A stretch of 64,000 bases of DNA from Castanea sativa. Lineage: Eukaryota; Streptophyta; Magnoliopsida; Fagales; Fagaceae. Below the pieces are notes generated by a model. That model was not told the origin of the DNA, ran no database searches, and was given only the letters and a program-made list of their open reading frames with translations. Where the stretch lies: the NCBI RefSeq assembly GCF_040712315.1, contig NC_134015.1, positions 22,569,614-22,633,613 on the forward strand, written 5' to 3'. Shown piece after piece: positions 13,760-37,716 of the stretch. The position numbers and the translations under genes were made by a program. The first letter of the stretch is position 1. Every line of letters starts with the position of its first letter.

Positions 13760-14695
13760 TTATTCAACTACATGTTCGTTCATTTCAACCAAAACAACTC
13801 TACTTCTAGGAGTATAATCATTCATATAGTCATTTTCCAAGAATTTGGCATTTGTGCTAACAAATACTTTATTATCCTTATGACTATAGAATAAACTTTC
13901 AATAGTTCCTTTTGGATACCCTACAAAGAATACCACTTCTGTTTTAGACTGTAACTTGTCAGACTTTCCTTTCAACACATGTGCTAAACAACCCCAAATA
14001 TGGAGATGTCTCATACTAGGCTTATGCCCAGTCCACAACTCTACAGGTGTTTTAGGAACATACTTTGAAGGTACTAAATTCAGAAGATACATTGCAATAC
14101 TTAAGGCATATCCCCAAAAGGAAATTGATAGAGTCGAATAACTCAACATGAATCTAACCATATCTAAAAGAGTCTTATTTCTTCTTTCTGCTACACCATT
14201 TTGTTGTAAAGTTCCAAGTGCAGTCAACTGAGATATAATCCCATTTTCAGTCAAGTAATCCTTGAAATCCCCAAGAAGGTATTCGCCACCTCGATCAGAT
14301 CAAATGGCCTTTATGCGTTTACCAAATTGATTCTCAACTTCAGTCATAAACTCTTTGAACTTTTCAAAAGTTTCAGACTTTCGTTTCATTAGGTACACAT
14401 AATCAAATCTAGAGTAATCATCAGTGAAGGTAATGAAATACTCATAGCCACCTCTTGCGTAGATTGACATAGGACCACATACATCTGAATGTACTAGTTT
14501 TAGCAACTCTTAGGCTCTTCTACCTTTTGCATTAAAAGGTCGTTTGGTCATTTTACCCTCCAAACAAGATTCACAAACTGAAAAACCATCAAAGTCCATG
14601 AGCCCTAAGAGTCCATCTTTGATAAGTCTTTGAATTCTGTTTGAATTAATATGACCCAAACGTAAGTGCCAAAGATATGCATCACTTGTAGAAGG
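13760..14695 (-). pseudogene. Copia integrase, broken
   Basis: The zinc-binding pre-integrase motif (WHLRLGHINS ... CESCLEGKM) is encoded at about 14550-14690. The core follows with LVHSDVCGPM, FTDDYSR and, after a stop near 14300, SDRGGEYL and QQNGVAERRNKTLLDM, which supply the D-D-E residues. Its ancestral role is insertion of the cDNA. Stops at about 14510 and 14300 separate the fragments. Confidence 0.88.
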
Positions 14696-15157
14696 AAACT
14701 TTCTCTTTAAGGATTTTACATGAGAGTTATTATCTAATTCAGAATTGTATAATTCATGCTTATCATAAGTTAAAATATAAAGACCATCTACAATAATGCC
14801 AGAACAGATAAACATTTTATCCTTCTTTATTATAACATTGTCTTTTAGGATAACATAATATCCATGTTTACCTAAATAAGTTGCAGAATTTAAATTCCTA
14901 CGAACATTAGGTACATACAAACAGTCTTCCAATATTAAAAATCTAGATTCAAAAGATAAATTAAACACTTCAATAGCTACAACTAGAATCCTGCTCCCAT
15001 CAGCCAAGGTAAGAAACATTTCTCCTTCATTCAGCTTTCTGGTCTCCTGAAACCCTTGCAAAGATTTGCAGATATGATTAGTACAACCTAAATCGACATA
15101 CCAGGAATCTATGGGATTTTGTACTAAACATGTTTCAAGAAGGAATGTACTTTTCAT
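14510..15157 (-). pseudogene. Copia aspartic protease and pre-integrase segment
   Basis: Reads WYVDLGCTNHICKSLQGF near the N-terminus, matching the Copia protease site, but the usual D-S-G is D-L-G here, which would abolish the catalytic triplet. The downstream LADGSRI and LYVPNVRRNLNSATYL blocks are typical of the protease-integrase linker. The region runs directly into the integrase zinc finger. The 215-residue frame is long for a decayed element. Confidence 0.85.
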
Positions 15158-15164
15158 ACCTTTA

Positions 15165-15976
15165 TTCTTGGCAGCCTTAAATATTGGACAATTCCTCTTT
15201 CAATGCCCTTTCTCACCACAATGAAAAGACTTTCTTATGGTTTTCTTTCCTTTGTTTGCAACTCCTAAGGTAACTTGTTTACCATCTTTCTTGGTGAAGT
15301 CCTTCTTCTTTTTACCCTTACCTTTCGACTTAGGTTGAGAAGTAGAAGTTTCAGCCATATTGGCATCAACATCAGAAGTACCAAGGATGCCTTTCGCCGC
15401 TACTAACTCATTCATTAATTCAAACAATGAATAAACATTTTTGTTCATATTATAGTTAAGTCTGAATTCCTTGAATGATTCTGGTAATGACTGGAGTATC
15501 ATATTCACTTAGGATTCTCCATCAATATCGGCATTTAAAACTTCCGATATATTCATATTAGAGATCATACTAAGACAATGCTCCCTCACTGAATTAGCTT
15601 CAGCCATCTTGGTATTATAAATCTGCCTCATAGTTTCTAGCCTTGCCTAACGACCTTGCTCACCAAACATCTCCTTCAGACTTAGCATTATGTCTGAAGC
15701 TAGTTCTACATCCTGCATTTGATACTGTAGAACATTGGAAATAGATGCTAGGATATAGCACTTAGCCATCTCATTAGATTTCTGTCAAGGATCATATCGT
15801 TGTTTTTCCTCAAGAAGAGCATCTAATGATAGAAAGCTAGGACATGGTTGAGTAAGCACATATTTGTGCTCTTCAGCAGTAAGAACAATGTCCAAATTTC
15901 TTTTCCAGTCAACATAGTTGGATCCAGACAATTTGTTTTAATTAAGAATAGCAACAAGTGGGCTAAATGATGCCAT
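15165..15976 (-). pseudogene. Copia gag (UBN2-type) with CCHC knuckle
   Basis: An ATG at 15976 starts MASFSPLVAILN, a stop, then NKLSGSNYVDWKRNL, the start of a UBN2-type gag. Further stops occur before NMILQSLPESFKEF (15508). A Lys-rich stretch (KSKGKGKKKKD) precedes the zinc knuckle FHCGEKGH, a stop, then KRNCP, near 15180-15225. The protein would form the virus-like particle. At least four stops make it dead. Confidence 0.85.
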
Positions 15977-17344
15977 GATTTTAAATCTGAAAATAACAAA
16001 CATGAATATAATTAGTAAACTAGACATTGTCAATTTAGCATATAAACATATATTATGGAATCTTAATAAAACGATAATATAAAATATGCAACGACAACCC
16101 AATCTTATGTTCAATATCCCTCAGAATAGAGTGAATATTAAATACTATGATTGATTGAGAACTATTCTCATTATAAGTGTTATCATAATAACTCTTATCT
16201 AATACTAATAATATACCCTTCGTACATTTAGCCTCTAAGTAAAAATAGTAAGAACTCAGCATAGATGATATTATAATACTTAGTCTAGTATATACCATTG
16301 TCTAGAATCATGTGTAGCCACATTTAATCTCCCTTAACAGGTTTATTTTGTAGTACCATGATACAAAACACCCTCCGCATGGATTGCAAAACTCAAGGCT
16401 AAAACAAGGCGTTTGATCAAACCACTATAAACCAGGTAGTTCAATCTTGTAGCACCATGAAATAAATACTCTTCGCATGGAATGCTAAGCTCGAAGCAAA
16501 GACAAAGTATATATTTCATACTACTATGAACAGATAATGAAAGCCATGAGATGCAACCCTTGTATCTCTCTCCCACTAGATATTTTAAATTAAAAGTTTT
16601 TAAGATCAAGAACCATAATAATGCTAGAAACCCTTGAAAAACATAATCCTAATCTCATTAGGAATAAATTTCATTAAAGGATTTTAATAGGAAACTAAAA
16701 TACTTTAATTCTAGCATTAATATATACTATTTGATCATAAATATAAATCACTAGACTAACATCTACATGTTAATCATTCAAGAATGAAAGCTATTCATTC
16801 AAACATGTACGTTAAGCAAAAATCAATAACAATTGGCAATATTAATTATAAAGCATTATAATAAACTCATGCCAAGAGATACATTTATATGCAATCGGTG
16901 CAAAACAAGGTGCACGTATATGAAAGTTATATACCAGTTACATTCATATGCCATGATTCATATATATATATATTAGTCATCTAGAAGGGTATGGAACTTC
17001 ATTCTATATATCTCATATATAAATCATCCAAGCGGTGCAAAGCAAGGTGCACTAACCAAGTGCAATAAATGAATTCAACTGTGGGCCTTGAAAGCTTGGT
17101 AAACAATCTACAGATGATAAGCAATCAAAGTTAAATTGTCTATTATAGCCAATCGGTGCAAGAAAGTCCAAGTGGTGCAATGAATCGGTTCACGCACATG
17201 ATAGTTATTGGAATAACTATATTCAAACCATAAACTTCACGCACATGAAGGCTAAGACACAGCACCCAACTAAAGCCAAGATGTCCATTCAAAGAAAGTA
17301 GTTATTGTCCATTGACAATCACTACTCTCAAGGGTAGTTATAGA
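15977..17344 (-). other. Copia 5' leader (internal part, left of the MULE)
   Basis: Non-coding leader between gag and the MULE insertion. It contains internally repeated blocks: GTAGCACCATGA...GCATGGA near 16350 and 16450, and CGGTGCAA(A)-type motifs with ACGCACATGA near 16895, 17033, 17154 and 17190-17245. The last 10 bp (17335-17344) are the MULE target duplication. Confidence 0.6.
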
Positions 17345-17459
17345 GGGAAAATTTGGGAAACAGTACAGGATGGAAAAAAATTTAGGACGAAAGCATGCGT
17401 TCAAACTTAATTAGTAAGTTGGACTCTTTTTGGAAGTCGAGTTTAGTATACTCGACTTC
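17345..17459 (+). repeat. Giant MULE left terminal inverted repeat
   Basis: Begins GGGAAAATTTGGGAAACAGT and ends with the first palindrome GAAGTCGAG...CTCGACTTC. It is the reverse complement of 31573-31687 with few mismatches, which lie in the outer 40 bp. Weaker homology continues inward (TGACGTGGATTAAAAA is shared by both ends). Confidence 0.93.
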
Positions 17460-17720
17460 TTACTAAAAATATTTCTGACGTGGATTAAAAAAAGAGGAAA
17501 AAAGCCAGGTGGAATTCTATAAAAGCGAGTAACTGGTACTCGACTTATGAAGTCGAGTACAGTGTACTTGACTTATGAATAAACAGTTAACCGTAGTAAA
17601 ACTACTAAAAACGAGTACCAGATACTCGACTTCCAAAAAAGTCGAGTATCCTGTACTCGACTTCCACTGCGGTTAAAATTTGTTTTTTTGTCTTCTAATC
17701 CGAGTATCGTATACTCGATT
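17433..17720. repeat. Left array of GTCGAGTA palindromes
   Basis: About six imperfect palindromes, consensus GTCGAGTA, 3-7 bp, TACTCGAC, at about 17433-17459, 17525-17547, 17550-17576, 17610-17633, 17641-17663 and 17700-17720. The counterpart array is at 31231-31599. Arrangement at both ends suggests transposase or host-factor binding sites; that role is inferred. Confidence 0.85.
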
Positions 17721-17732
17721 TGCCTTCTCTCT

Positions 17733-17912
17733 ACGCCGTTCCTCTCTCTCTCCGGCGTCTCTCTCTGTATACGCCGTAACTGTCTCTCTCTCCGGCGTCT
17801 CTCTCTTTCTACGCCGTAACTCTCTCTCTCCGGCGTCTCTCTCTCCGGCGTCTCTCTCTTTATACGCCGTAACTGTCTCTCTCTCCGGTGTCTCTCTCTT
17901 CCTACGCCGTCG
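17733..17912. repeat. CTCTCTCC-GGCGT minisatellite
   Basis: Blocks of CTCTCTCTCCGGCGTCTCTC alternate with TACGCCGTAACT over about 180 bp with slightly varying unit length. The result is a pyrimidine-rich strand with spurious ORFs on both strands. It lies just inside the left MULE end and ahead of the mobile-domain gene, so it may be part of that gene's 5' region. Confidence 0.7.
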
Positions 17913-18668
17913 TTTTCTCCATCCATCATCAACCAGCAGGTTTGTTTTCTCTCTCTCTCTCTAATGTGATTTGTTTCTCTTTATTTATTGGCTGAAATGG
18001 GTTTTGATTTGGTTTTTAGGTTTAGTGATTTGGAGATTTGGGTTTAGTTTTTATTTGTTCTTGTTATGCATCTGAATCGTCTAATTATTTATTTTCTATG
18101 AATTTAATCTGCCCAAATATAATCAACCAAATCATGATTTACCTATATAATCAACCAAATCATGTTTGTGTACATTGCTATCTGGAATGATTCAATTTTT
18201 GTAGCTTTCTCAAACAAACTAGAAGTTTTCAGACTTGTCAATTACTCAAAACAACAGAAGCACCGACTTAAAACTTCGATACATACTTGTTTTTATTTTA
18301 TTTGTTCTTGTTATGCCTCTGAATCTTCTAATTATTTCTTTCTCCCTCTTCCACCTATATAATCTGCCCAAATCATGATTACTTTTCTATGAGTTTAATA
18401 GTATCTTAGTTACTTTGTGTAGATAGTGCTCTTGAATGTTAGTTGTTTCTTATGTGCTAATGGTTGACTGAAATATGTTAGGACTAATTCAATTTTTGTG
18501 TTGGTGGGCAAACGAATGTGGCAGTTCAAGCCAAGTCATTTGTATTGTTTCCCTTGATTAATATTGTTCTAGTAGAGCATAGCTCCTCTTTATCCATGTT
18601 CTGCTTGAGCTTGACTTTTTTGATCTCCTTTTCTTGTTATGCCTTATGACACATAAACTTTTTGCAGT

Positions 18669-21208
18669 ATGACGATAGATCCTGGACCTATTGATCGTAG
18701 TGTATTGACGGAACAAGTTAAACATCGATCTGAGTTACTGTGGAACCCTGGGGGACATGTAATTGCATGAGTTTTATGTAACTATGCATTCATGTCACAA
18801 CTCTAATTAGCCATAAATACTAAATATTTGCATACGTTTTTCATCTATTGTTATAATATTTGTAGGATCCTCCTGGCACACTGGATTGTCGAAGTCGCCA
18901 TGAAGAATTGAGACTTCAAGATCCTATGGTAGATGATCGTGTCCTTGCCATTGTGAGGTTACTTGGTCTAGAGGGTTTGCACTTGGTCCCATCCATACAG
19001 CTTGACCATGCACTGATCACTTCATTTGTAGAGTGATGGCGCCCAGAGACCCATACATTCCACCTACCACATGGTGAGATGACGATCACATTGCAAGATG
19101 TGGAAGTTATCATGGGGTTGCCCATTGAGGGTGAGGCAATGGTTGGGCCTTCTAAAAGAATTTGGGAAGACGTGTGTGCTGAAATGCTTGGAATTCAAAT
19201 TCCAAATGGCCCTCAAACTGTGCTAAAAGGTCAAAGGATTCTAATACCCGCACTTGTTGAAAGAATCAGACAACCACTGCCTCCGAATGCCAATGAGATT
19301 CAAGTTCATCAGTATGCTCGTTGTTATATACTAGCCCTACTAGGAGATATGGTTTTTCTTGACAAGTCCGGAGATAGGGTCCATCTCATGTGGTTAAAGT
19401 TCATGCAGAACCTTCGTAATCCACGCAAGTATAGTTGGGGTAGTGCAGCCTTATCATGGTTGTATAGGCAGCTGTGCAATGCAACCGACAAGAAGGCAAA
19501 GCAGATTGGCGGACCACTGATTTTGGTCCAATTGTGGATATATGTTAGGTTCCCACATATGTCCCCTCAGATGGTGCCCCAACCCGAGGGTGTTTATGGT
19601 CCACCACTACCACCAATTCCTCTTGCTATGAAGTAAGTATCTATTGCATAATTAGTAAAACTCATGTATTATGCCACATTTTTATACGTAAACAGATGAT
19701 GCTAATGACCATGCAATGTTACTTGCTTGTAGGTGGACATGGGCGATGTGTACAAAGAATGCTCCCACGCACGTGCTTTCCGCATATCGCAATCAAATTG
19801 CCACGACACGGCCCGACCAGATATAATATTTATACATCCATAACATCTTATGTCCTTCAAAAAGTTTTTCATTGCCAACTATTGTGGTACTTGTTATGCA
19901 AATTATGGGAATAGACTGAATGTGTTTGCTTTACTTGGTGGCTTTTGTAGGTTAAGTGGGAGCCATACGGAAATGACTTGAGCCACCTTCCTCCTAGTTT
20001 TAGCATTGAGGGAAGTAACGTATGGAGGTCAACCGTTCCACTTATATGTTTTTGGCTTGTAGAGTTCCACCTACCCGATCGTGTCCTGCGACAGTTTAGG
20101 CTAAAGCAGGAACAACCCACAGATGCTAATACCAATCATGCTTTGCACAAAATAGATGCGAGGGGCAAGGTAGAGAAAAATTGGTCAGTGGAACATGCAG
20201 TCCATATTCAGAAGTGGAATGATCGTGACGAATACGTTTGTAATGCACCCAGGATGGAGGAGATGATGTCACGTCATCATCCATATATGGTGTGGTATCG
20301 TAGAATCACTCGACTGTATATCGACCGCACTAGTGCTAAGATGGACATTTTGGTAATGTGCATTAATTACTTTTTCACTTATATGTTATGTTTGATGTTA
20401 TGTATGTGTTGTACTTAATATATGCCCGTGATTTAATGACAGCTTGCAACCCAACTGGCTATCCTCAACTGGTTCAACGAAGAATCTTATGAATATAAGT
20501 TCATTAAGAAGGCCCTTGAGGATGTGGATGAGGTTGATCGTATCGAGGTGCCAGCCAATGATGAAGCAGCAAACCGATCGAAATACCGGATGTAGGGCCC
20601 GCACGAGCTTAGCTGCTCCAATGACACGTTATCGACCTGCCCCTACCCCTCCTTTGGCCACTGTGACTCCTGTTCCACCTGTGTCCACCCCTGAGGACAC
20701 AACCAGCCCTCCCATGCCACCCATCCCTCCCATTGACACTGGATCTCACTCGCTATTTACCCATGCTGAATTTGAGTCCTCCCCACACACCACCACCGTT
20801 GACCACCACTCACCCATGGCCCCGTCCTATAGCTCCCCCCAGATAGTTATACCCACCCCTAGCCTTCAAACACCCCACGTTGAGCTTATGTCTACCAGCC
20901 CAAGTCAGACACAATCACCTCCTACCTCCTCTACCTTGATACATGTTCCACAAGCCACGCATCCACATGAAAGTGACATTGAGCAGGGGCAAGGTGACCA
21001 AGCTGAGCAGCCACAGGATGCAAACGCTGACGCTCCACCCAAACGGAAATCGACTCGCGCCATCCAACCAAAGAGATGCGGCACAGGTTCCCACCTGGTA
21101 TTCCAAGTGGTTTACTCTGTTTTTGTAATTCCATATATTTTTTGGGTTTCTTTGTGCATGAATTTGTTTGTTTGTGACAGCTTAAAATATAACATTATGA
21201 GCAGGTAA
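18669..21208 (+). pseudogene. Plant mobile domain (PMD / MAIN-like) gene carried by the MULE
   Basis: Exons are inferred at 18669-18758, 18866-19632, 19733 to about 19830, 19951-20352 and 20443 to about 21100, mostly with good GT-AG sites. Exon 2 contains VDDRVLAIVRLLGLEGLH, TFHLPHGEMTITLQDVEVIM and the NANEIQVHQYARCYILALLG block of the PMD domain. Exon 4 adds VKWEPYGNDL, VPLICFWLVEFHLPDRVLRQ and DEYVCNAPRMEEMM. The last exon is Pro/Thr/Ser-rich. PMD proteins occur as host genes (MAIN, MAIL1) and inside Mutator-like and other plant transposons; their biochemical activity is unclear. Lesions: TGA at about 19035 where the family usually has Arg (VE-stop-WRPETHTFHL), a one-base shift near 19821, and a stop at 20593-20595 before the Pro-rich tail, which continues in another frame. 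Confidence 0.82.
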
Positions 21209-22217
21209 CAGAGCATGTTCCGGCCAAACAATACACCAGACGCAACCAGAAAAGAAGTAAACGAGGGGATGGTGCATCATGACTATTGGAATCCTATAAG
21301 GGCTGCTGCAGTCTTGGAATCCTATGCAGCTAACCCTTTGTGAGTTCTGATTTTATAGCCAATTTGTTTTTTCTTCTTAGCTAGACTTCTTATGGTTATA
21401 AGTCTGAGTTTTGCTTGATTTTTTGCTTTACAAAACTTGCAATTTTGTTGGGTATATCTGATATGTAACCTTAGGTATTTTTTCTGTCATTTTGATTATT
21501 TATTACTTATTTAACTTTATTATCTGCTATCTATAATTCTGTAAATTTTCAGAACAAATGAGTATAGAATTACTCCTAGGCATGTTGATCTCTAAGTTGT
21601 TTTAGCACAATCGTTGATGCAGTAGATGACACCACAGTTTTGAAACCCAGAGCATTCAAAGAACTAAAAAAGATAGAGGTTCAAGGTTTTTGGACTGGTG
21701 GATTATTGAGTTTGCTAAGACTGTTTGTTACTTTCTCTGCTTGCTAAGAAAAATTCTGTTAGTTAATTGGATTACTAAAGGAGAAAGATTGACATTAATA
21801 AATGACTTAAACAAAAGGTAAACGGTATGACTTTTGAGAGGCAGCTGAGTAGTGTATTTGACTTGAGAAATTGGAGGGAGAGAATGTGTAAAGGAGAAAG
21901 ATTTCCATCAATGAATGAGTTTAAACAATGTAAATGGTATGAACAGAGGTTTCCAATATCAATTAGTAATGAAAACTGTAAACTATCTCAATCAAATTCA
22001 TTTTGTAAACTGTAAACCAGCAAAAATTATGTAGTTTATCAAAAATTATTTTATAATATGAGCAGTGTTGTGGTTGTGTGAGATAAAAGATTTGTGAGAA
22101 CTTGAAAGAGTAGGGAACTTGAAAGATTTGTGAAGCTGAGTAGTTTGGTGAAGCTGAGTAGGGAAAGATTTGTGACAATCCCAGCTCACAGGCCAGCTGA
22201 GTAGTTTGGTGAAGCTG
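21209..22217. other. MULE interior, no supported gene
   Basis: Follows the mobile-domain gene and may contain its 3' end. Around 22085-22215 the segments GTAGTTTGGTGAAGCTGA and AGGGAA(A/C)TTGAAAGA recur several times in a short internal duplication next to the LRR fragment. Otherwise nothing recognisable. Confidence 0.4.
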
Positions 22218-22347
22218 AATTTTACTGGTAATAAGGTATCTAGTTTGGTTCCATTAAGTTTAGGGAACTTGAAAGAGCTGACCCACTTAGATTTGAGGTC
22301 TAATGAGCTAAATGGTGAACTTCCTGCATCTTTCTGGTCAGGTTGAT
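22218..22347 (+). pseudogene. Captured leucine-rich-repeat gene fragment
   Basis: Plus-strand translation reads NFTGNKVSSLVPLSLGNLKE, then LTHLDLRSNELNGELPASFW, matching the plant extracellular LRR consensus (LxxLxxLDLxxNxLxGxLP). It is one to two repeats long with no signal peptide, kinase or flanking repeats. A stop follows directly after SG. It appears to be an exon piece of an LRR receptor-like gene picked up by the MULE. The parent gene cannot be identified from this length. Confidence 0.6.
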
Positions 22348-23668
22348 GGGATGCTCTCCAATTCCATGTCCTAGAAGATTGAAACTATGAACTTGAGTAC
22401 TAATTTCAATCTCAAAGCTAACACCTTTACTACATTAGCAGCTTTTCAGCTATAGGCACTAACTCAAATATTCCCAATGGTGGTTTGTTCAGTGCATTTG
22501 TTTTCTCTTACCTAGTTTGTGTGTGTATATATATAAGATGCTATATCGTACTAATCTTGATTTGGCTGTATATTGTGGTTTATGCAGGCCGCACTGCAAT
22601 GATAGGCCGCACTGTTGATGATAGCTTGACTGGGGTGGGCAAGCAGGACCAAATGGGCATCTTCTTTTGTAAAACTGTACTGTTCAATCAGCAACCTTCG
22701 TTGCTTATCAAAAAATAGCATGTTCTTGTCTATTTCATGTTATTGTAGTTACTCTGTTTTAGTGAAGAATGTTGACCTTAATTTCACATCCTTGTAATTT
22801 AGTCTTTTGATTTATTAGTTCTTGTGCCTTTCTAGTTACAAGTTTCTACTTTTCTTAAATTCTCTGAACATGTTTTCTTTTGAATTGAGTCTGAAAAGAT
22901 CATGGTGGCACTGTGTAATCATCTAAACAAGCTTACATGTAGCAGGCTTCTTAGTTCTTGCATTACAAATATCAGCTTCATCATCACACAGGTCTGAGCC
23001 AAACTTATGTTTCTAATAAAGTATTGTTTTATTTTTTTTTTAAAAAGCAAAGGGTCTGAGCCTAAGTTATTTATCTAGTTATCTAGTATTTTCTATTGCC
23101 ATCAAGAAAGAGTGCCTTTTTCCATTAAAAAGCTGCTGCCACTTAACCAATCAGTCATTGAAGATGACAAAGACCCTCTAATATCTCTATCCTAAACATC
23201 CATTTTTGGAACAACTTCATAATCAAAAATTAAAAATTAAATACTGTATTTGAAATTCAGTCTAGAGGTTACTGACAGTCTAATTCCAGAATTTAAACAA
23301 ACAAAACACTTAATAACAGTCCTCTTGCTGGTCATCCATTTTTTTTGCTGGTCATGCTGATTCAGTGCTCTTGCAGTCTTGATTTTTCTGGACTAGTAAA
23401 TATTGACTCTCCATTGTTAAAGAGACTAGGGTGTGCAAGATCAGCAGTAGTCAAAATTTCGGCTTCGATGAGAAATGTTTACCTCCATTGCCGCACCTTT
23501 ATAAACCAATGAAAAGAAATCAGATAAAGACAAGTCACATAAGCTTCAAAGGTAATAGGATATGAAAAACAACAAAGAATATTTTGATCTTGCAAAGCCA
23601 ACCATCTAATTTAGAGTGCATTTCCAGCTATGGAAAGAAACAGTTGAGTATATTTTGCTCCTTCACAG
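22348..23668. other. MULE cargo of unknown origin
   Basis: Unique-looking DNA with host-like base composition. A frame at 22485-22718 has no recognised domain, although GGCCGCACTG is repeated inside it. The stretch just upstream of 23669 ends in a good acceptor (CTCCTTCACAG), so part of it is probably an intron carried with the GSA exon. Confidence 0.35.
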
Positions 23669-23758
23669 TTTGAGGCTGGATTTACAAGCTTGGCACATAC
23701 TCCTGCAGATATCCAGAAAACAATGGCAGCTGCTGAGAAGGTTTTACAGCAGATTTAG
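23669..23758 (+). pseudogene. GSA: Captured last exon of glutamate-1-semialdehyde 2,1-aminomutase
   Basis: After a CTCCTTCACAG acceptor the plus strand reads [20 protein letters not shown] then AAEKVLQQI and a stop: 29 residues. This matches the C-terminus of plant GSA aminotransferase ([11 protein letters not shown]...DIQ...AAE.VL), the plastid enzyme making 5-aminolevulinate for chlorophyll and heme. Only the last exon, its acceptor and probably some 3' UTR (23759 onward) are visible; the PLP-binding part is absent. The frame is undamaged, suggesting recent capture. Confidence 0.75.
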
Positions 23759-24291
23759 AGTGGCAATTCCTGTATCTATAGTCTATGATTTACCTTCCCA
23801 TTTTTTCCCCTCTAGCATAATTACTGTTTTGCATGAGGATTGAGAGTGTTGTAGTTAATTTTCTTTAATGAGAACATGCATTTCTACTTATTAATGTAAT
23901 CTAATTTTCTACTTGTGGGAAGGGTATTTGGAATCACCCATCTGTGTGTATGTGTTTGTTTATGTTGTGGTTATAGTTGGGGTGCTTGGCCACTTGTGTT
24001 CTTGATGCTGCTTTGTGTCTGAATCTTCCGTTTTGATGTCCATAAGTTGGAGCTGTATGGTGCAGAGAAGAGGTAGTACCAAGATAATTCACATATTAGA
24101 AATTAGGATACCTATGTAGAATATATATATAATGCTGTGGTTTTGTCTTCATATTGATAATTTGCTCTAATATTTTTTAATGGGCCTGGCTGATAGCTAT
24201 TATTAACAATCAGTATTTTGATGAGTATGTTTACACACCACATATATAGAAATGTGTTGAATATGTGTTGATCATGGATATTACTTATTAG
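23759..24291. other. MULE cargo between GSA and TTM fragments
   Basis: Probably 3' UTR of the captured GSA exon followed by intron DNA of the TTM fragment; no coding potential was recognised. Confidence 0.35.
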
Positions 24292-24606
24292 TAAAATCTA
24301 TCCAAGAACTACGAGAGAAAAAAGATGGTCTTGTTACAGTTGGCATTGGTGGTCCAAGCGGTTCTGGTAAAACAAGGTATACATGCTGTGTAATGCTTTA
24401 ATATTTTATTCCCCTGCAGATTTGTGTAGAGTGAAAGCATTTTCTGCTTGTTTTATTGTGAATGGTTCTAATTTGTAACGTAAATCTAATGGTCCCTGAA
24501 GCTTAGCAGAAAAGGTGGCATCTGTTATTGGTTGTACAGTTGTATCCATGGAGAACTATCGTGATGGATTTGATGAAGGGAATGATCTGGATTCAATAGA
24601 TTTCTT
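24292..24606 (+). pseudogene. TTM: Captured TTM / uridine kinase-like gene fragment (two exons)
   Basis: The first exon (24292-24376) reads [20 protein letters not shown] then PSGSGKT, ending in AG before GTATAC. The second (24502 to about 24606) completes the Walker A (GPSGSGKTS) and continues LAEKVASVIGCTVVSMENYR, DGFDEGNDLDSIDF. This is the P-loop kinase domain found N-terminal in plant triphosphate tunnel metalloenzymes TTM1/TTM2, which act on pyrophosphate or tripolyphosphate at mitochondrial membranes. The CYTH domain and all later exons are missing. The intervening intron (124 bp) is retained, so capture was at DNA level. A uridine-kinase-like paralogue remains possible. Confidence 0.75.
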
Positions 24607-25196
24607 TATCAACATTCAATTTTGAAAGATGCAAAACTGGAACTTGCCGCTTAGTACACCCTGGTACTTTTTCACCTCTTTCTCTCAAGTGGTGTGTAAA
24701 TAGAGTAATGGGTATATTTAACAGTTTATACAAAGTTTCATTAGGATATAAGAAGGGTATTACATGCATTTGTTGAAAATGGTTATTTTTTTAACCCTCT
24801 CTTTTCAAGTTTTATAGTTTTTAACAGCCAAGGTGAGACACAATAAATTAGTGCCCCAGCTGTAGCCTGCAACTTCTTAACATCGTTTACTTAAAAAAAA
24901 AAAAAACTTGTTAACCTTGCACTATGTGCTGGACAATGTAGCACATATAGCAACTTCTATAAAAACCAGTCTTATTAACTTTAGAAATATTTTGCGTCTT
25001 TTTCGTTAAAGCAACGCAGCACGGCAGAATTCACGTGCCTGTTATGACCAAATAAACTCCATTCAGATATGGTATAACAGAATCTGAATTTGTTTTGAAA
25101 AATGCATTATATTCATTAATTATTACTACTAACTCTTTTTTGGGTTATACATACTTGTGCTACTTCTTTGCTGTCATAGAGGGAATTCTCAAGGGA
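24607..25196. other. MULE cargo between TTM and SCPL fragments
   Basis: AT-rich with an A-run near 24890-24907; no gene recognised. The last few hundred bases may be promoter or 5' UTR carried with the carboxypeptidase fragment. Confidence 0.35.
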
Positions 25197-26691
25197 ATGA
25201 ATAGAAGAGTGGGGTTTTTTAGGAGTATCTTGAGAATTCCTGAGATGGGTCATTGTTGGTTTAGTTGGGTTTTGGTTGTGTTGTTGGTGTTGTTGGGGGT
25301 TAGTGTGAAGGGGTACCCAGTTGAGGATCTGGTTGTGAAACTGCCTGGACAGCCTAAGGTTGAGTTTAGACAGTATGCTGGGTATGTTGATGTGGATGTC
25401 AAGGCAGGAAGGAGTCTGTTTTACTATTTTGTTGAGGCAGAGAGCCAACCTGACAAGAAGCCCCTAGCTCTGTGGCTCAATGGAGGTTGGTTTTGTTCTT
25501 TAACTTCTTATATATTATTGTATGTTCCTGTTCAATTGTGCTTGCACTTAACTTCCTCATCATATGATGTTTGTTACTTAAGTATTTAAGTGAGACTGTT
25601 CCTTCTACTTTGTCTCTTTTCATAATCTTGAACCTGTTACTTCATTGTACTTCTGGATCTTGTGCTTACTTACTTTCCCTTCCTATGTGGAAAGTTATTC
25701 TTCTCTTTTTTAACTCTTTTCAAGTTTTCTGTTTGTTTTTCCCTATGCCAAATTAAATTTTGTTCCCTCATCTGTGCTTCTTTTTTTTTTTTTTTTTTTT
25801 TGCCTTTTCCAAATAATTAGGTGCCCAAATTTGAGGACTCTTAAAGCATAAAATAAAAAAAAAAGATGTCCTGTTTAGAATTTAGAATTCAATTTAGCTT
25901 CTTTAAGGATGACACAGTGTGCCAATTGTCAGTCAAAAAAGCGAAGCAGAATATTTCCTTGGCAAATGTAAAACTTGGAATTTGACAACAGGCACTTCAT
26001 CTCTAATCTTTTGGTGAATACATAACATTTAAACCTTTTTAAATGTAAAATCTATGTTTTAGATTCAGACATTTAGCAACTCAATTTTGATTGATCCTAG
26101 GGAATGGAACTCTACTAAATTACTATTTGCTGGTTCTCTTGTTAGTTTTAGAAGTGAGATGGGGAGAGCACTAATTTTGTTGTCCCTTGAGCTTGCAATT
26201 GAAGAGTCATGGGCTTGATTAATAAGGATGAGAAAGGATGTAAATTTTATTAGTACTAAATAAAATTCATTCGTTTACAGGGACAAAAAACTGAAACTAT
26301 TTTTTAAGTCTGACACTTTTATACACAATTATTGATGTAATTTTCTCTGTTCAGGTCCAGGTTGTTCTTCTATTGGGGGAGGTGCCTTTACAGAGTTGGG
26401 TCCATTTTATCCTAGAGGTGATGGTCGAAGCCTTCGAAAAAATTCAATGTCATGGAGTAGAGGTAAGTCACTTAGCATATTATGTGGAACTTTGTTTTCA
26501 TTTGGCTGGATCATGTAGTATGGACTAAAGTTCCCTTTGTTTAAAATTTTTAAATTGTGATACTAATGCATCCATCAAATTGTTCCTATTCTTTTCATTC
26601 TGTAGCATCAAATCTCCTTTTTGTTGAGTCACCGGCTGGAGTAGGATGGTCATACTCGAACACAAGTTCAGATTATACTTGGGGAGCTTCC
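25197..26691 (+). pseudogene. SCPL: Captured serine carboxypeptidase-like (SCPL) gene, first three exons
   Basis: Exon 1 (25197-25485) encodes [10 protein letters not shown], a hydrophobic signal segment ([14 protein letters not shown]), then [20 protein letters not shown] and [11 protein letters not shown]. Exon 2 (26355-26462) gives [20 protein letters not shown]; exon 3 (26606 to about 26691) gives [20 protein letters not shown]. Splice borders are GT-AG and phases fit. These are the substrate-binding and oxyanion-hole region of class II (SCPL40-51-like) serine carboxypeptidases, secretory or vacuolar S10 hydrolases. The coding match stops abruptly at DYTWGAS with an in-frame TAA, before the catalytic Ser (GESYAG), Asp and His exons. 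The captured frame is uninterrupted up to that point and could give a short secreted peptide if transcribed. Confidence 0.85.
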
Positions 26692-26900
26692 TAACGATTA
26701 CAACCAAAGACAAATGATCCATAAAATCAACTAATGAAGTAGGAAAACGCAAGAAAAAGGCCTAAAGATCAACCACAAATCTCTCCACACCTTCAAAAGT
26801 GTGACTATTATGTTCCATCCAAAGTATCCAGATAACACAATGAGAAGTCTCACAGCATTGTTCCTATGGCAATGACATGATTTGTGACAATGACATGATT
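26525..26900 (-). pseudogene. Possible non-LTR retroelement / zf-RVT C-terminal remnant
   Basis: On the minus strand about 26755-26880 reads HCVIWILWMEHNSHTFEGVE RFVVDL, resembling the W..W.ERN.R.FE...R block at the C-terminus of plant LINE-type reverse transcriptases. A short open frame (26525-26752) follows. Its edge coincides with the point where SCPL homology ends. Only about 100 residues are seen and the match is by eye. Confidence 0.4.
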
Positions 26901-27456
26901 TGGCTGTTACAATAGGTTCTATTTGTTTAATTTTAAAGAAGACTTTTGTAGTTTACTTAGCCTTTTTTTTTCTAAAATATTCTTTGTTATAGGTTATATT
27001 ACGTTTTTTAGTTGAGCGAAATTTTGTTTATTCTGTTTGAAGTTGGCTAAAGATGAATTTGTGGTCATTCTTCTAGGTACAATGTAAATTATTGAACAAA
27101 GCTTTTAATTGTTTATTGTTTCTCAGTTTTTAGGAAACAATTAGTTCATCTACCAAAGGAAACCTAAGACTGATGGAAAAGAACAGCCACAATTAACAAA
27201 ACTTGCAAATTTGCAGTAATCCATTTAACATGATCTGCCTTATAGGAACACGCTGCACATTACATTTAATGTAATTTTGTGGCTCCTCACAAACATAAAC
27301 TTTTAATAGATAATGCAGTATTGTTTTATGGTAAGTAACAAATAACAACACAGTGCTACTTTATGAGGATATATGTGCAAAGATGTGAATGAAAAGAAAT
27401 TGATTTTTTTCAAGATCATAGCTATTGATTTTAGTTGAATTGCATGCGTTGCTTAC

Positions 27457-30164
27457 CTAGTTTGGAACATGGCTGCTTGTTGATGCGCGAATCACATTCG
27501 GACATCTCCTGCGGTTATGGCCCTCTTCGTGACACACTCCACATTTCGGCTTGGGTTGACTCTCCCTCCAATCCATCTCGTTTCTTATTCTTGTTGACGT
27601 AGGTCGACCTTTGTCTCGCAACATTTCAAGGTCAGGGTACAACTTTGGGCCGGCAACCTCCCGCCATAATGACTTATCCTTGGGCACACAAAACTCATGT
27701 GAATAGGTGGCAAGTCGCTTTTGTAAAGTATAACATGGGTCAATATACCTCATTGCATTGACATGTTCCCTGATACAAACTGCAATCACATGTGAACAAG
27801 GGATCTTATAGATTTCCCATTTGCCACAAGTACATGTGTTCTCCAGCAATCTTACTTCATGACTATGGTCTCCCCCATTAGAGCTGTGTGGATTATGTGT
27901 TGTGCAAACCTGATATACACCGTTCTGCTGGTTAAATGGCCTCACATAGTGTCTTGTCCCTTTTTCGTAATTTGCTTCATATTTCTCCATGGCATGCTTG
28001 CTGAACTTCTGACCATGTTGAATATCACCCAATATTTTAGTGCGCCGATCATTGAAATAGGCGACAAGTTTGCACTAAATGTAGTCAACCAATGCAGATA
28101 TGGGTAGTCCACGTGCACCTTTTAGAACTCCATTGAAACACTCAGACATATTGGTAGTCATTGCCCCATAGCGGTGTCCACCATCATGTGACAGTGTCCA
28201 CTTATCTAGACCCTCCTTCGTTAGATAGGAGTACGGCTTCTTTTTTGCTATATTGGGATTGGGATCCTTACTGAATTTGAGTTCACATTCCTTAAGGCAA
28301 TCCAATATTTTTTCAAGTTTGCGATCTTGATGCTCGTATCCTGCTTTCAAGGCCAAAGACTTTAAGAATTTGTCATTAAATTGGGTGTTGAAGTTGCTGG
28401 CCACATGTCTAATGCAATATCTATGATATACCGAAACATAATTATTGGGCCACTGGGCAATGGATGATATTATACCTTTATGTCGGTCTGATATTATGCA
28501 AATGCCACCACATCCCGTATTGCAGTCCGCAAGCATTCTAAAAACCATCCCCAACTGGCCCCCGTCTCTTCATCCACAACCGCAAAGGCAAGCGGAAAAA
28601 TCTCATTATTAGCATCGGTAGCCATTGCAATCAACAACTTTCCTTTATATTTTCCATAAAGATGAGTTCCATCAATACTAATCACTGGCCTACAATGTGC
28701 GAATCCAGCAATGGAAGGAGCAAAAGCCCAGAACACATACTTGAATATAATAGTACCCGGTATGTCCCCGTTGATCGACCGAAACTTTACTTGTGTACCT
28801 GGATCGCTATCCTTATATGCCAACAACAACTTCTGCAACTTTTGGTACGACTCTTCCCAATTCCCATGTATGTTTGCAATAGCCTTTTGTTTCGCATCCC
28901 ATATCTTGTAGTATGATATATCGTGGTTAAACCTTTCCTTCATCAGATTTTGGAGATCCTTTATTTTGCTGGTGTGATCGTCAAGTATATATTTATGCAG
29001 TTCTTTGGCAAGAAAATTCGAATCCATCATTCTGCCATCTTTGTTTACCCCAACTGATGGACAAGTGTGAGGACCGCCAAATACTTTGACAGCCCATAAT
29101 CCGTTAAGCTTCGGTTGCGAGAATGCTCGGACTTTCCATGCACATGACTCATTTGCACACTTCATACAAAATCTTTTCTAGTTGGACCACTCAGTTATAT
29201 AATTCTTGTTGTTATCCAGAGAGTAAACTATTAATGCCTGTTTCACAGCCTCTTTATTAGGGAAAATCAACCCTTTGCTAAAATTCATTCCCCGCCCCCA
29301 ACTTGATGAAAATGATATCTCAACACTTGAAGGATCAATAACATTATCCCAAGTGTTTGCATGGAATGACAGGCCATGAGCTTCATATGTAGGGACTGTA
29401 GCATGATCACCATCGCCTATATCATCTTGAAACTCTATAGCATCATCATCATGATCATCCACGACATCATCACAGACATTGTCAACATTTTCATAGTTTA
29501 TAGTATTCTCGTGAAAGTCATCTCTCCCAATCATCTCTTCATACTCATCTCTACCATGATCAACATCATCTCTGTCTTCGTCTTCACCTTCCCCCCCTAG
29601 AGATTGAAGAAGTTCTTGTTGATAACTAGATCTGCAAGCCTCCATTGGAGTTGGTGTCTCTTGACATGGTAGTGTATAACCCTCAACTATAGTGGACGGG
29701 GTAAGAGTCAGATGACTATCTGCATGTAATGATTGGAATTCTTCCCCGCCACCACCCTCCAAAGTTGTTTGTTGCACATCTTCACCGCCAACTTCTATAC
29801 GAGGCTCCACACTTATATACAACTCAGCAGCTTTTAATTGGGGCGTAGAGTTTATCCTGTCAAACATAATCTTAACATGCTTGTCTCCTTTTATTTCAAT
29901 AGGTGTGAAGACAATACGGTCACTGAACACTGCAAGAGGAGCACGATATGTAATTTTTATGTCCTGCAACCGACGGTCCAAATTCAGCTCTTTCATAATT
30001 TTCTTTTTCAACTTCTTCAAATTGATCTCCCGCCGTTTTTTTAGCTGAATAATTTCTAACTTTGTACCAGGCCCTTCATATGTCACTCCATAAGTCACAT
30101 CATTGCAGACCTCCCCACCATAATATAGATATAAATCAACCGAACTCATTACAAGATATAACAC
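27457..30164 (-). pseudogene. MuDR-type MULE transposase with SWIM and CCHC zinc fingers
   Basis: Read on minus from ATG 30164 or 30149. The N-terminus (about 1-110) is a PB1-like domain common in plant MULEs (VDLYLYYGGEVCNDV), followed by an Asp/Glu-rich linker. A MuDR-type zinc region then gives MKCANESCAWKVRAFSQPKL, and the transposase core carries RPVISIDGTHLYGKYKGKLL (first Asp) and CIISDRHKGI (second Asp). TNMSECFNGVLKGARGLPI, the SWIM finger CTCGKWEIYKIPCSHVIAVC and the knuckle CGVCHEEGHNRRRCP finish the protein. It would cut and rejoin the element ends. Lesions: TAG near 29180 (before KRFCMKC), a frameshift near 28500-28530 between the two Asp motifs, and TAG near 28072. With three breaks the enzyme is probably inactive. 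Confidence 0.9.
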
Positions 30165-30304
30165 CTTTATTCGATATGAACTACAAATATTGCCTCAAGG
30201 AAAATATAAAGATAACATGGTCGCTAACATTAAAAAAAATTTTAAACAACTATAAACAAATTTTTAAAAAATTAATACGTTACACCTTACAACTAATAAG
30301 AGAA

Positions 30305-30890
30305 GTTCGTGTTTCTTGAATCACTATAATTTACAATGTTTTATTAAGAGAGCTGAAAATTTTCTTTGCTGGGATCAAAAAAAAAAAAACAGCACATCAT
30401 TATAATATAACAGCCCATCAAGTTCATGTTTCTTGAATCACTATAATTTACAATGTAATATTAAGAGAGGTGAAACTTTTCTTTGCTGGGATCAAAAAAA
30501 AAAAAAAAAAAAAACAGCACATCATAATAATATAACAGCCCATCAAGTTCATGTTTCTTGAATCACTATAATTTACAATGTTTTATTAAGAGAGCTGAAA
30601 ATTTTCTTTGCTGGGATCAAAAAAAAAAAAACAGCACATCATTATAATATAACAACCCATCAAGTTCATGTTTCTTGAATCACTATAATTTACAATGTAA
30701 TATTAAGAGAGGTGAAACTTTTCTTTGCTGGGATCAAAAAAACAAAAAAACAAAAAAACAGCACATCATAATAATATTACAGCCCATCAAATTCATGTTT
30801 CTTGAATCACTATAACATAGCTGAAACTTTTCTTTGCTGGGATCAAAAAAAAAAAAAAATACAGCACCTCATACTAATATAACAACCCAT
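30305..30890. repeat. Tandem array of about 120 bp, five units, alternating subtypes
   Basis: Units begin GTTC(A/G)TGTTTCTTGAATC at about 30305, 30422, 30547, 30664 and 30791. Units 1 and 3 share TTTTATTAAGAGAGCTGAAA and units 2 and 4 share TAATATTAAGAGAGGTGAAA, so the array expanded as a dimer. Each unit has an A-run of variable length. It lies just upstream of the transposase start, in a promoter or 5' UTR position. Confidence 0.85.
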
Positions 30891-31230
30891 CATAATAATA
30901 AACTACCATTAAAAACAACACATCATCAACTGAAAAAGTTAGTAATTTATTATAATAAAAAAATTTGAACAAGGTTGAATAACCAGGTATAACAAAAAAA
31001 AAAATATATATATATATATTTAAAATGTTTGAATAATTTACCTCCCTTATTGAAGAAGAAGAAGAAAACAACCTTTTTAATTTGTAGAATGTGATGTGTG
31101 GTGAAAGGGAGAAATTTGGACGTGGGAGAGAGCTGGGAGAAGTGAGAGTTGTGGGAGAAGTGAGAGTAAAGGATTAAGAGTCATCAGACTAATAATCTGA
31201 GGCAGTTGAGGTAGTTGCAGAATTAATTGG

Positions 31231-31599
31231 AAATCGAGTACAGTATACTCGATTTCCATTTAAAATTTTTTACCGTCACTGGTGGGATTAATGCCCAGAA
31301 GTCGAGTACATGGTACTCGACTTTAACTAAAAATCGAGTACCCTATACTCGACTTTAACTGAAAGTCGAGTACCCTGTACTCGATTTTATGTGTTCATGG
31401 CACCCTTAAAATGCAGTTCTCGGGGTATTTTTTGCGCATTTTTTGCGCCCTTGAAGTCGAGTTCACTATAATCGACTTATAAAAGTCGAGTATTTTAAAC
31501 TCGACTTCAACGGGGTCTTTTTTTACCTTTTTAATCCACGTCAGACAGAGAAAACATGTGTGAAGTTACCCGGAAGTCGAGTATACTAAACTCGACTTC
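31231..31599. repeat. Right array of GTCGAGTA palindromes
   Basis: Seven imperfect palindromes at about 31231-31256, 31299-31323, 31330-31353, 31361-31385, 31453-31478, 31485-31506 and 31573-31599, matching the left array in consensus but not in spacing. The last one lies in the terminal inverted repeat itself. Confidence 0.85.
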
Positions 31600-31687
31600 C
31601 AAAAAGAGTCCAACTTACTAATTAAGTTTGAACGCATGCTTTCGTCCTAAAATTTTTCCCTACCTGTACTGTTTCCCAAATTTTGCC
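31573..31687 (-). repeat. Giant MULE right terminal inverted repeat
   Basis: Reverse complement of 17345-17459, ending GGGAAACAG-type sequence and AAATTTTGCC on the plus strand, followed at once by the TAGTTATAGA duplication at 31688-31697. Confidence 0.93.
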
Positions 31688-31824
31688 TAGTTATAGACCA
31701 TGCTTTGACCGATATACCATTTTTATTTAAGAAACTTTATGCTAAAATTTGAAACACAAAGATAATGGTTTTCTTAAATTCTAAAACCTAATCACATGTT
31801 ATACAAACATGATATGAAAACCTA

Positions 31825-35061: not shown

Positions 35062-35643
35062 TGAAGGGGAACAAAAATGAACATGACGGACCTACATGGT
35101 TGATATGACGACATAAGGATGACGGTTCATACTTAACATGGCCAAGGTGGACGGATCCAAAGTGGATGGATTGAGTATGATGCAGTGGTCATCCTTCCAG
35201 GATTGTTTCCAAGAACCTTAAATAGGATTCACGCTATATAAGTAGGGCTGATGTGGCCTGACTTGATCTCCACGTGACCATGTATAAGAAAAATTCTTGC
35301 ATCACACGTTTAGCCTTGATCAAATGACTCCTATGAGGAAAAGAACTCTAGAAGGTATCCAAAAGGAAAGAGTTCCAATTCTAGAAGGAAAGGACTTCAT
35401 GGTCAAGGCATGGATGCTAACTCTACACCACTATAAATACTCTAAAACCCTCATAAATTAAGGTACGCATTATTAACTCGACTCTGGTACTTTAAGGTCG
35501 TGAAAAACTCTAACTTGACCTTCGGAGGGTTTTTGGCCGACACCACACCGGTGCCCTCTGTTAGGTCTTCTCTTTTCGTTTTGCAGGTGCTGTTTCGATT
35601 TAGGAGTGTGTGCAGCTTACTGGTGATTTTTTCGGCATCATCA
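35062..35643 (+). repeat. Gypsy 5' LTR
   Basis: 582 bp, TGAAGGGG to CATCATCA. It includes a CTATATAAGTAGGG promoter-like motif (about 35234) and the sequence GTGGACGGATCCAAAGTGGA, which resembles the unit of the internal tandem array at 41144-41662. Confidence 0.93.
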
Positions 35644-35661
35644 GTTGGCGCCGTCTGTGGG
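35644..35661 (+). other. Gypsy primer-binding site
   Basis: GTTGGCGCCGTCTGTGGG starts immediately after the 5' LTR. TGGCGCCG...GGG is the common primer-binding sequence of plant Tat/Athila Gypsy elements; the exact tRNA was not determined. Confidence 0.75.
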
Positions 35662-35721
35662 AAAGAAAATCAGTGCTGGGAGGTAATTAGCCTTTGCTCT
35701 ATCCCTGAGACAAAAAGTTGC

Positions 35722-37248
35722 ATGGTACTCACTCGATCGATGGCAACAACCAATAATCAAGGTGACGAACCGCACGTTACAGCTCTAGAAAGGCAAGTCC
35801 AAACGCTTGCGGCGGCGGTTGAGCGCCTAACCAAGCAGAATCATGATCTAGAAGAGCAACTGCGACAAATGAATGCACACCTAAGCGCACCAGAGGAAGA
35901 CCAGGAAGGTGCTAGCGCGGATGGAAGGAACACGGAAGGGCCTGAGGGTAGCAACGCTCCGAGTAGACTGGAGCAGCAGGACACCAACCAACCATCCATC
36001 TCGGACACCTTACCAACTCACATAGCAGCTGAGATGCAAGAGATGAGGGAACGGATGGATGTGATGATGAACGCCCTCAGAGGTCGAATCTCCAACGACC
36101 TGGACGGCTTAGTCCATAGAACAGATTCGCCTTTCACAGTGCTCGTAAGTTCATGCCCCCTTCCCCCAAAATTTTACATGCCTCAGGTGGAGAATTACGA
36201 TGGATCCAAGGACCCATTAGATCACTTGGAATCTTTCAAGACCCTAACGTATCTTCAAGGCGTACCGGATGAAATCATGTGTAGGACTTTTCCCACCACC
36301 TTGAAAGGACTTGCGAGGGAATGGTACAGTAGGCTGACGCCTAATTCCATCGGCACTTTTAAGAAATTAGGCGCACAGTTCGTATCACACTTTATCGGGA
36401 GTCACCGGTATAAGAAGTCTACCGCGTGTCTAATGAACATTAAACAACGAGAAAACAAGACTCTAAGATCATACATAGCCCGCTTTAACAAGGAAGCCCT
36501 CTCAATAGACGACGTAGATGATAAGATACTTGTAGCAGCATTCACAAACGGGCTGCGGAAGGGTAAGTTCCTGTTTTCTCTGTATAAGAATGACCTAAAG
36601 ACTATGTCCGAAGTGTTTTACAGGGCAACAAAGTACATGAACGTAGAGGATGCCTTGCTGGCCCAAGAGGAAAAACATAGAAAAAGGGAAAGGCAAGAAG
36701 ATACACGACCGGACAAGGGACGAAAAATGGCTAGAACTGGAGAGCGACGGGAAGATCGACGACCCAAACCGCCCACGGGAAGATTCACAAACTTCACCCC
36801 TCTCACAGCCCCAATCGACCAAGTGTTAATGCAGATCAAAGATGAAGGAACCCTGACGTTTCCTGGCAAGTTGAAAGGAGATCCGAACAAGAGGCCAAAA
36901 GATAGATACTGCCATTTTCATGGCGATCATGGCCACGATACGACGGACTATTATGACTTAAAATAGCAAATTGAAGCCCTCATTAGGCAAGGAAGGTTGC
37001 AGAGGTTTGTGAGGAAGGAAAGAACGGATCAACTCCAGGAACAAAATCCCCGACGGGAGAACAAGCGTCCCAGACCACCTGTAAGAGACATACAGATGAT
37101 TGTAGGGGGCACTACTTCTGCAGGGTCATCCAAAAAGGCCAAAAAGACCTATTTAGGGATGGTTCAAAGCGTCCAGTCGACAGGTTCCTCACTGAAAGTG
37201 ATGCGACGAGATAACCCCAGCATCGGGTTTTCGGAAGAAGATGCGTGA
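35722..37248 (+). pseudogene. Gypsy gag with internal stop
   Basis: Starts MVLTRSMATTNNQ (in-frame starts exist upstream, but this follows the primer-binding leader well). Residues about 20-60 form a coiled coil (LERQVQTLAAAVERLTKQNH); the retrotrans_gag domain follows with EWYSRLTPNSIGTFKKLGAQ and HFIGSHRYKKSTACLM; the end has a basic region and YCHFHGDHGHDT. A TAG at 36964-36966 interrupts DLK-stop-QIEALIRQG, a spot where one C-to-T change from CAG explains the stop. The frame then continues to a TGA at 37248. Gag forms the particle that packages element RNA. Confidence 0.88.
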
Positions 37249-37261
37249 CGCCTTCACCACC

Positions 37262-37713
37262 TAGATGATGACACGCTCATTATCAGCATACGGGCAGGAG
37301 ACTACAACATGCATTGAGTTTTGGTGGACAATGGAAGCTCAGCGAATATCCTCTACTACCCCGCGTTCCAGCAAATGGGGATTGGTAGAGAACGACTGGT
37401 CCCAACGAATGCACCCCTTGTTGGCTTCGGAGGGACAAGGGTCTATCCTTTGGGAGTCGCCACGTTGTCTGTGACGGTTGGGGATTACCCACAGCAAGTA
37501 ACCAAGGATGTAGCTTTCCTTGTGGTCAACTGCTCTTCTGCTTATAACGCCATCCTTGGACGGCCCACTCTCAATGCATGGAAGGCTGTTACCTCGACCT
37601 ACCATCTAATGGTCAAATTCCCCACTGAATACGGGGTTGGAGAGTTGCGCGAAAATCAAGTGGCTGCACGGGAATGCTGCATCGCCATGATGGAAATGGA
37701 TGACCACCTATAA
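37262..37713 (+). pseudogene. Gypsy aspartic protease
   Basis: Reads LVDNGSSANILYYPAFQQMG with the catalytic triplet D-N-G in place of DTG/DSG, a variant seen in this lineage, then NAILGRPTLNAWKAVTSTYH. An in-frame TGA about 37317-37319 just before VLVDNGSS (probably from CGA) separates it from the upstream DDDTLIISIRAGDYNMH, and TAA at about 37711 ends it. Confidence 0.85.
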
Positions 37714-37716
37714 GCA

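Follow-up and report, generated by a model that had tools for sequence, protein, structure and literature searches.

Pack-MULEs of rice, maize, and tomato are Mutator-like elements (MULEs) in which MULE ends and target duplications surround pieces of host genes, which at times derive from more than one parental gene (PMC4858842, accessible portion). They are non-autonomous and, by the definitions given in the available parts of the sources (PMC3310237, PMC8903248, PMC4858842), lack a transposase; two published screens put transposase-bearing elements aside (PMC4858842, PMC8903248). As far as the accessible text of each source goes, maize MuDR has two convergent genes between long terminal inverted repeats (TIRs) (PMC3310237) and internal deletions ascribed to interrupted gap repair (Hsia and Schnable 1996, per PMC10288884), and the MULEs of grasses and Amborella that carry a plant mobile domain (PMD) are reported to have it fused to the transposase (Ikeda et al. 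2017, PMC5418596). In grapevine, transduplicating class II elements bear a transposase together with genic pieces, some of them common to several copies, and the accessible part of that source reports no nested, layered series (PMC2528002). KAONASHI/VANDAL-type MULEs with ULP1 have one established host-derived gene besides the transposase, according to the portions available (PMC2528002, PMC13317346). How DNA transposons acquire unlinked host genes is unsettled, and an undiscovered mechanism may remain for the capture of such genes, according to the accessible part of a 2026 review (PMC13317346).

The element examined here, W, is the copy in a 64-kb window (the whole stretch of DNA that was analyzed, to which positions without a chromosome refer); its sister copies elsewhere in the Castanea sativa genome are designated C4a, C10a, C2b, and so on. 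W is a Mutator-like element of 14,343 bp (17345-31687) with the following ends.

17335-17344, no strand: left target-site duplication, TAGTTATAGA
17345-17459, + strand: left terminal inverted repeat
31573-31687, - strand: right terminal inverted repeat
31688-31697, no strand: right target-site duplication, TAGTTATAGA

The two duplications agree at 10/10 positions, and the inverted-repeat pair 17344-17459 / 31573-31688 spans 116 nt with 96% complementarity, in keeping with the exact 10-bp target duplications and the near-identical 115-bp inverted ends described in an earlier note on this DNA. Long TIRs, a target duplication in the 8- to 11-bp range, and a MULE-type transposase place W among the MULEs, and captured host gene sequence lies between its ends. 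Since the published definitions of Pack-MULEs exclude transposase, and W retains transposase sequence, it is a MULE with both a transposase and captured sequence, and the Pack-MULE label that the earlier note gave it does not apply. Its description there as a single transposable unit with a transposase gene, a PMD gene, and a multi-gene cargo holds.

When the flanks of W (400 bp on the left and 400 bp on the right) were searched apart, both matched one place on C1 in the same orientation, at 94% and 86% identity, respectively. The left match stops at 14560353 and the right match starts at 14560362, so that the two share exactly 10 bp, the length of the target duplication. This is a paralogous empty site, located in another copy of the retrotransposon that flanks W; the empty Copia site for which the earlier note had called thus exists as an empty retrotransposon site, in the same genome and not in a sister accession. 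The left flank has another strong match on C1, 6.5 kb away. Gag-pre-integrase and SH3-like domains are present at 13760-15199 (-) in the retrotransposon flanking W, which we take to be Copia-type, and W appears to be inserted in the leader of this retrotransposon, in agreement with the earlier note. The matching duplications and the empty site argue against an assembly join of unrelated contigs, as do colinear parts of W that recur on other chromosomes in C4a (17342-23905, in pieces), C10a (25659-31689), and C1a, such that support from other copies lacks only about 23.9-25.7 kb. An assembly join is therefore extremely unlikely, even though W comes from a single assembly.

A genome search with the left end of W gave 138 first-look candidates, and the 40 of these that were scored yielded 42 places. 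The ends pair in at least 20 copies, the pairing that had been set as a check on the element, with lengths of 339 to 16,369 bp (one partner end was added from fetched flanks); besides these pairs, the search gave one internal match of 28 bp and two ends for which the fetched surroundings contained no partner. Target duplications of 9-10 bp with at most one mismatch, scored as the best among several lengths and one-base offsets, are present in 17 of the 20 listed copies: 15 are exact at 9-10 bp (three with a one-base offset) and two have one mismatch. The duplication of C11a differs by an indel and was read by eye. With several lengths and one-base offsets tried, no target duplication was found in C4a and C1c, which rules out C4a as a clean single insertion. 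Internally deleted copies that keep both ends are common in the family. C7a, at 339 bp, is barely more than two ends and has a perfect 9-bp duplication; C6a is missing the transposase gene, and approximately 1.3 kb next to one of its ends is unexplained.

Repeats of two kinds accompany the ends of W.

17434-17721, no strand: six palindromes of approximately 25 bp (AAGTCGAGTA-N5-TACTCGACTT type)
31231-31598, no strand: seven more palindromes of approximately 25 bp
30303-30815, no strand: tandem array of approximately 117/125-bp units beside the 5' side of the transposase gene; related arrays occur in other family copies

All 13 palindromes in the 64-kb window lie inside the two ends of W, against an average of 0.1 over 20 base shuffles. 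Across 20 copies, the left and right 800 bp contain 98 and 119 palindromes, respectively, and the interior none; two of the 20 copies are too short to have any interior. These palindromes may constitute a transposase-binding array.

Two element genes converge on the interior of W.

18866-20595, + strand: PMD gene (PF10536), four exons set by eye, common to family copies; premature stop at 19034-19036
27457-30194, - strand: MuDR/MULE transposase gene (PF10551, PF04434); interrupted by in-frame stops at 29178-29180 and 28075-28077 and, near 28507, by a 10-bp deletion that shifts the frame

Pfam matches inside W comprise PMD (PF10536, E 2.4e-45 and 4.3e-18), MULE (PF10551, E 1.6e-10), SWIM (PF04434, E 8e-11), Peptidase_S10, and LRR. 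Matches to PMD and transposase occur together in 14 of the 20 listed copies (transposase alone in 2, PMD alone in 1, and neither in 3), so the convergent pair is the core of the family and the PMD gene is not cargo of W; its presence across family copies rules out that it was captured by this element. The second gene of maize MuDR is mudrB, whereas that of W is a PMD gene, and a large host cargo lies between the W genes. Like the PMD-carrying MULEs, W has a PMD within a MULE, yet here, in a eudicot, it is a separate gene convergent with the transposase gene rather than fused to it.

Unlike Pack-MULEs, W keeps both element genes, in a broken state. The position of the transposase stop at 29178-29180 is also a stop in C10c, while the stop at 28075-28077 and the 10-bp deletion are private to W among the copies aligned there. 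The PMD stop is absent from the 14 other copies in which that codon is aligned, and the match of C5a ends short of it. W was called autonomous-type in the earlier note; with transposase and PMD both broken, it is predicted not to be autonomous now. Assuming no intron, there is no uninterrupted transposase frame in the nine copies spanning the whole region, nor in C11a, which is without the 3' end, so that past transposition must have depended on a functional relative or on a previous state that was still functional. The best match to the C4a transposase frame is a C. sativa protein with PF10551 and PF03108 (98% identical), and the named proteins ranking next to it are mostly from Quercus and Lithocarpus. 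A predicted Quercus suber protein has LRR as well as MULE transposase domains, possibly through annotation across captured sequence.

Comparison with the rest of the genome resolves the middle of W (21.5-27.4 kb) into a partly nested mosaic of about 11 donor loci.

21467-21692, + strand: captured piece; donor C1:90055900-90057069, 1.8% mismatch
21692-22011, + strand: captured piece; donor C6:49128692-49127693, between CTLH-domain exons of a gene
22026-22099, + strand: captured piece, also in C2b; 22026-22089 matches C5:40350944-40351007 at 98%
22190-22407, + strand: LRR receptor-kinase gene piece; donor C12:13351203-13351470, within a 1,074-aa open frame
22481-22943, + strand: captured piece; donor C10:8733543-8732924, weak PsbS match
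22937-23421, + strand: captured piece; donor C5:78884738-78885155, 6.7% mismatch
23412-23643, + strand: captured piece; donor C3:43638645-43638409, 3.0% mismatch
23646-23905, + strand: outer layer, left part; donor C7:22112182-22112442, 3' end of a glutamate-1-semialdehyde aminomutase gene
23913-24603, + strand: middle layer, left part; donor C8:55404403-55405420, non-coding DNA retained
24601-26692, + strand: inner layer, serine carboxypeptidase gene; donor C1:24827728-24830106, 0.9% mismatch
26680-26857, + strand: middle layer, right part; donor C8:55405671-55405848
26878-27149, + strand: outer layer, right part; donor C7:22114395-22114645
27145-27443, + strand: captured piece; donor C5:10974622-10975297

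The earlier note had counted pieces of at least four unrelated host genes; the capture is real, and the count rises to about 11 donor loci. Ten of the 11 were fetched, the C5:40.35 Mb donor being known from its match alone. They lie on other chromosomes or, for C3, approximately 21 Mb away, and are mostly low-copy in the match tables, with several paralogues for C7. Six of the 10 donor frames had no Pfam match (C7, C10, both C8, C1:90 Mb, and C5:10.97 Mb). The C7 donor was named through NCBIfam and PDB sequences; the C10 donor frame, whose PsbS match is weak (E 0.0043), is presumably LIL3-like, and we take the C8:55.40 Mb donor, which has no Pfam match, to be a TTM-like P-loop kinase. No gene was identified for the C1:90, C5:78.9, C3, and C5:10.97 donors (the frames of C1:90 and C5:10.97 were scanned). 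The donor loci are probably sources rather than copies made from the element, because genes or frames continue beyond the captured piece for the serine carboxypeptidase (SCPL), LRR kinase, glutamate-1-semialdehyde aminomutase, and CTLH loci.

The carboxypeptidase piece (0.93% over 2,054 bases) and the C8 pieces (1.04% over 869 bases) have the lowest mismatch to their donors among the ten compared. They are followed by C1:90 (1.76%), C5:10.97 (2.99%), C3 (3.02%), LRR (3.21%), C6 (5.60%, or about 3.5% without one secondary 75-bp match), C5:78.9 (6.71%), C7 (7.27%; left 3.1%, right 11.6%), and C10 (10.26%).

Because donor non-coding DNA is kept and gaps against the donors have no splice borders, the captured material derives from genomic DNA. 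Processed (spliced) capture is ruled out: read by eye, 0 of 13 gap borders have GT-AG ends, several of these borders being the same gap against two references. C4a retains DNA missing in W at the four borders compared, and this together with the lack of GT-AG borders indicates that the gaps in W are deletions. The nested order alone could be read as a series of separate transposon or retrocopy insertions into the element. Such a history is most unlikely, given the retained non-coding DNA, the gap borders without GT-AG ends, the mostly low-copy donors, and junctions that, where scored, overlap by 0-5 bases and otherwise contain filler.

W holds pieces of about 11 chestnut loci, some inside others like the layers of an onion. 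By coordinates, the C7 pieces bracket the C8 pieces, and these bracket the carboxypeptidase piece, in the order C7[C8[C1]C8]C7. C4a contains the C7 piece but neither C8 nor carboxypeptidase DNA and is, on this comparison, a putative pre-capture copy for these two layers. Layer presence was scored over the copies after removal of simple-repeat C8 matches and one 71% C6 match in C6b. The LRR and C5:78.9 pieces are each in W, C4a, C2b, C10c, and C6b; the C10 piece is in these five and C1c; and the C3 piece is in W, C4a, C2b, and C6b. Both the C1:90 and C6 pieces are in W and C4a, as is C7, the right part of which is also in C10a and C1a. The C5:10.97 piece is in W, C4a, C1b, C10a, and C1a, and C8 and carboxypeptidase DNA are in W, C10a, and C1a. 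These last three form one clade in the transposase trees (support 0.985 and 0.996), so that the youngest layers, also the innermost, are consistent with the tree. The three occupy different sites, all with perfect 10-bp duplications, and this sharing of the youngest layers between sites shows that the cargo moved after capture. As the earlier note had anticipated, W does reveal how capture builds up, since sister copies keep earlier stages.

Older layers are patchy on the tree, with C11a and C1b lacking the LRR, C10, C5:78.9, and C3 pieces kept by more distant copies, so losses or exchange must be assumed. Divergence from the donor is not monotonic with depth (C10 10.3%, C3 3.0%, C1:90 Mb 1.8%). 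C8 and carboxypeptidase DNA may have been captured in a single event; because they co-occur in all three copies, one multi-switch event and two events are indistinguishable.

DNA from identified other loci is present in at least 11 of the 20 copies, namely nine with W-type donor pieces, C2a, and C11a. The middle of C2a is 99% identical to C2:1091219-1093472, with the 3' end of the transposase replaced as well, and C11a and C2b have a common piece from C8:22191853-22193737 that is partly repetitive in the genome; these copies have different donor loci in the region occupied by the W cargo. C10a, which groups with C2a by PMD (0.997) and with W by transposase, is a recombinant with a C2a-like left part, a W-like right part, and a switch inside the capture interval. 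In the Pack-CACTA type of capture, the published model for those elements (PMC13317346, accessible portion), a host gene lies between two neighboring insertions of one family and is enclosed when an aberrant excision event unites them. This route is very unlikely for W, given that about 11 unlinked donors, and a donor within a donor, are unexpected from single neighbor pairs, and that the terminal repeat occurs in the window only at the two ends of W.

Microhomology at the junctions was scored by best breakpoint, exact extension being unusable with old donors that are too diverged. Eight of the 14 capture junctions examined were scorable (four between donors, which sum to 11 bp, and four trimming losses within a donor piece), the other six containing filler or being ambiguous through divergence. 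These eight sum to 21 bp of microhomology against 6.3 expected (P 0.005), and one of them is blunt; the two youngest have 3 and 2 bp, not significant singly. Among junctions of deletions or recombination in sister copies, 6 of 8 were scorable and gave 12 bp against 4.5 expected (P 0.01), with C1a blunt and C9a at zero on a poor alignment with 16 mismatches; the 13-bp overlap at C9a suggested by BLAST coordinates was not confirmed by the same scoring. Leaving out filler and ambiguous junctions favors homology, and the tests are therefore supportive and not proof.

W belongs, in decayed form, to a two-gene MULE family, and host DNA has accumulated in it between the 3' ends of the two genes, probably by repeated interrupted gap repair with template switching. 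Each round would start with a break or an excision gap in a resident copy. Both ends would be re-synthesized from an intact template, and repair would fail in the middle and, at short stretches of homology, switch to unlinked templates elsewhere in the genome. Where no host template was taken up, this process would leave internally deleted copies; where the new template was another copy of the family, it would yield the recombinant C10a. Retained ends, central losses, central gains, and a recombinant within the family are as interrupted gap repair with template switching predicts. Alternatively, fork stalling or a chance break in a silent resident element could have been filled by template-switch repair independently of transposition, with transposase needed only for later movement. 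Junction microhomology and the internal position of the cargo fit this equally well, and gap filling is the favored model for single-copy animal Pack-TIRs in the accessible part of PMC8277862. There, donors are mostly near the element, whereas those of W are on other chromosomes or approximately 21 Mb off; in addition, captures are found repeatedly among the copies of a single mobile family, and internally deleted copies with both ends are common in that family. We regard transposition-independent filling as unlikely, though a serious competitor. Excision was not observed, and the sequences at hand do not separate repair driven by excision from repair independent of transposition.

Transposase-bearing capture is already known, and the value of the chestnut family is its layered record within one genome. 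For the grapevine elements, the accessible text reports no nested series, and KAONASHI/VANDAL-type MULEs have one established gene, in contrast to the changing multi-donor mosaic of W. In the literature searched, of which the portions available were mostly outside subscription journals, we found no earlier description of a transposase-bearing MULE with captures nested in successive layers. Within that scope, a series of layers from many donors, with its intermediates present in one genome, appears to be new, as does a separate convergent PMD gene in a eudicot MULE family. Since the family is a series of states in one genome, with donors, junctions, and pre- and post-capture copies, the order and rate of capture are measurable. 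Pack-MULE surveys that set transposase-bearing elements aside would miss the stage represented by W. More tentatively, and with the balance slightly against it, transposase-bearing MULEs may be able to act as serial capturers: host DNA would accrete round after round, layer inside layer, between convergent gene ends, where failed repair of a long element resolves, and would move with the family, and transposase-free, fragment-laden elements may partly be later deletion products. If this is true, screens that discard transposase-bearing elements first would hide that origin.

Elsewhere in the window, LTR-retrotransposon frames with gag, reverse transcriptase, RNase H, and integrase domains lie downstream of W at 35446-40767 (+), and a further reverse-transcriptase domain is at 57634-58446 (-). 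A frame with an F-box domain at 51684-52274 (+) is possibly a host gene or a fragment of one.
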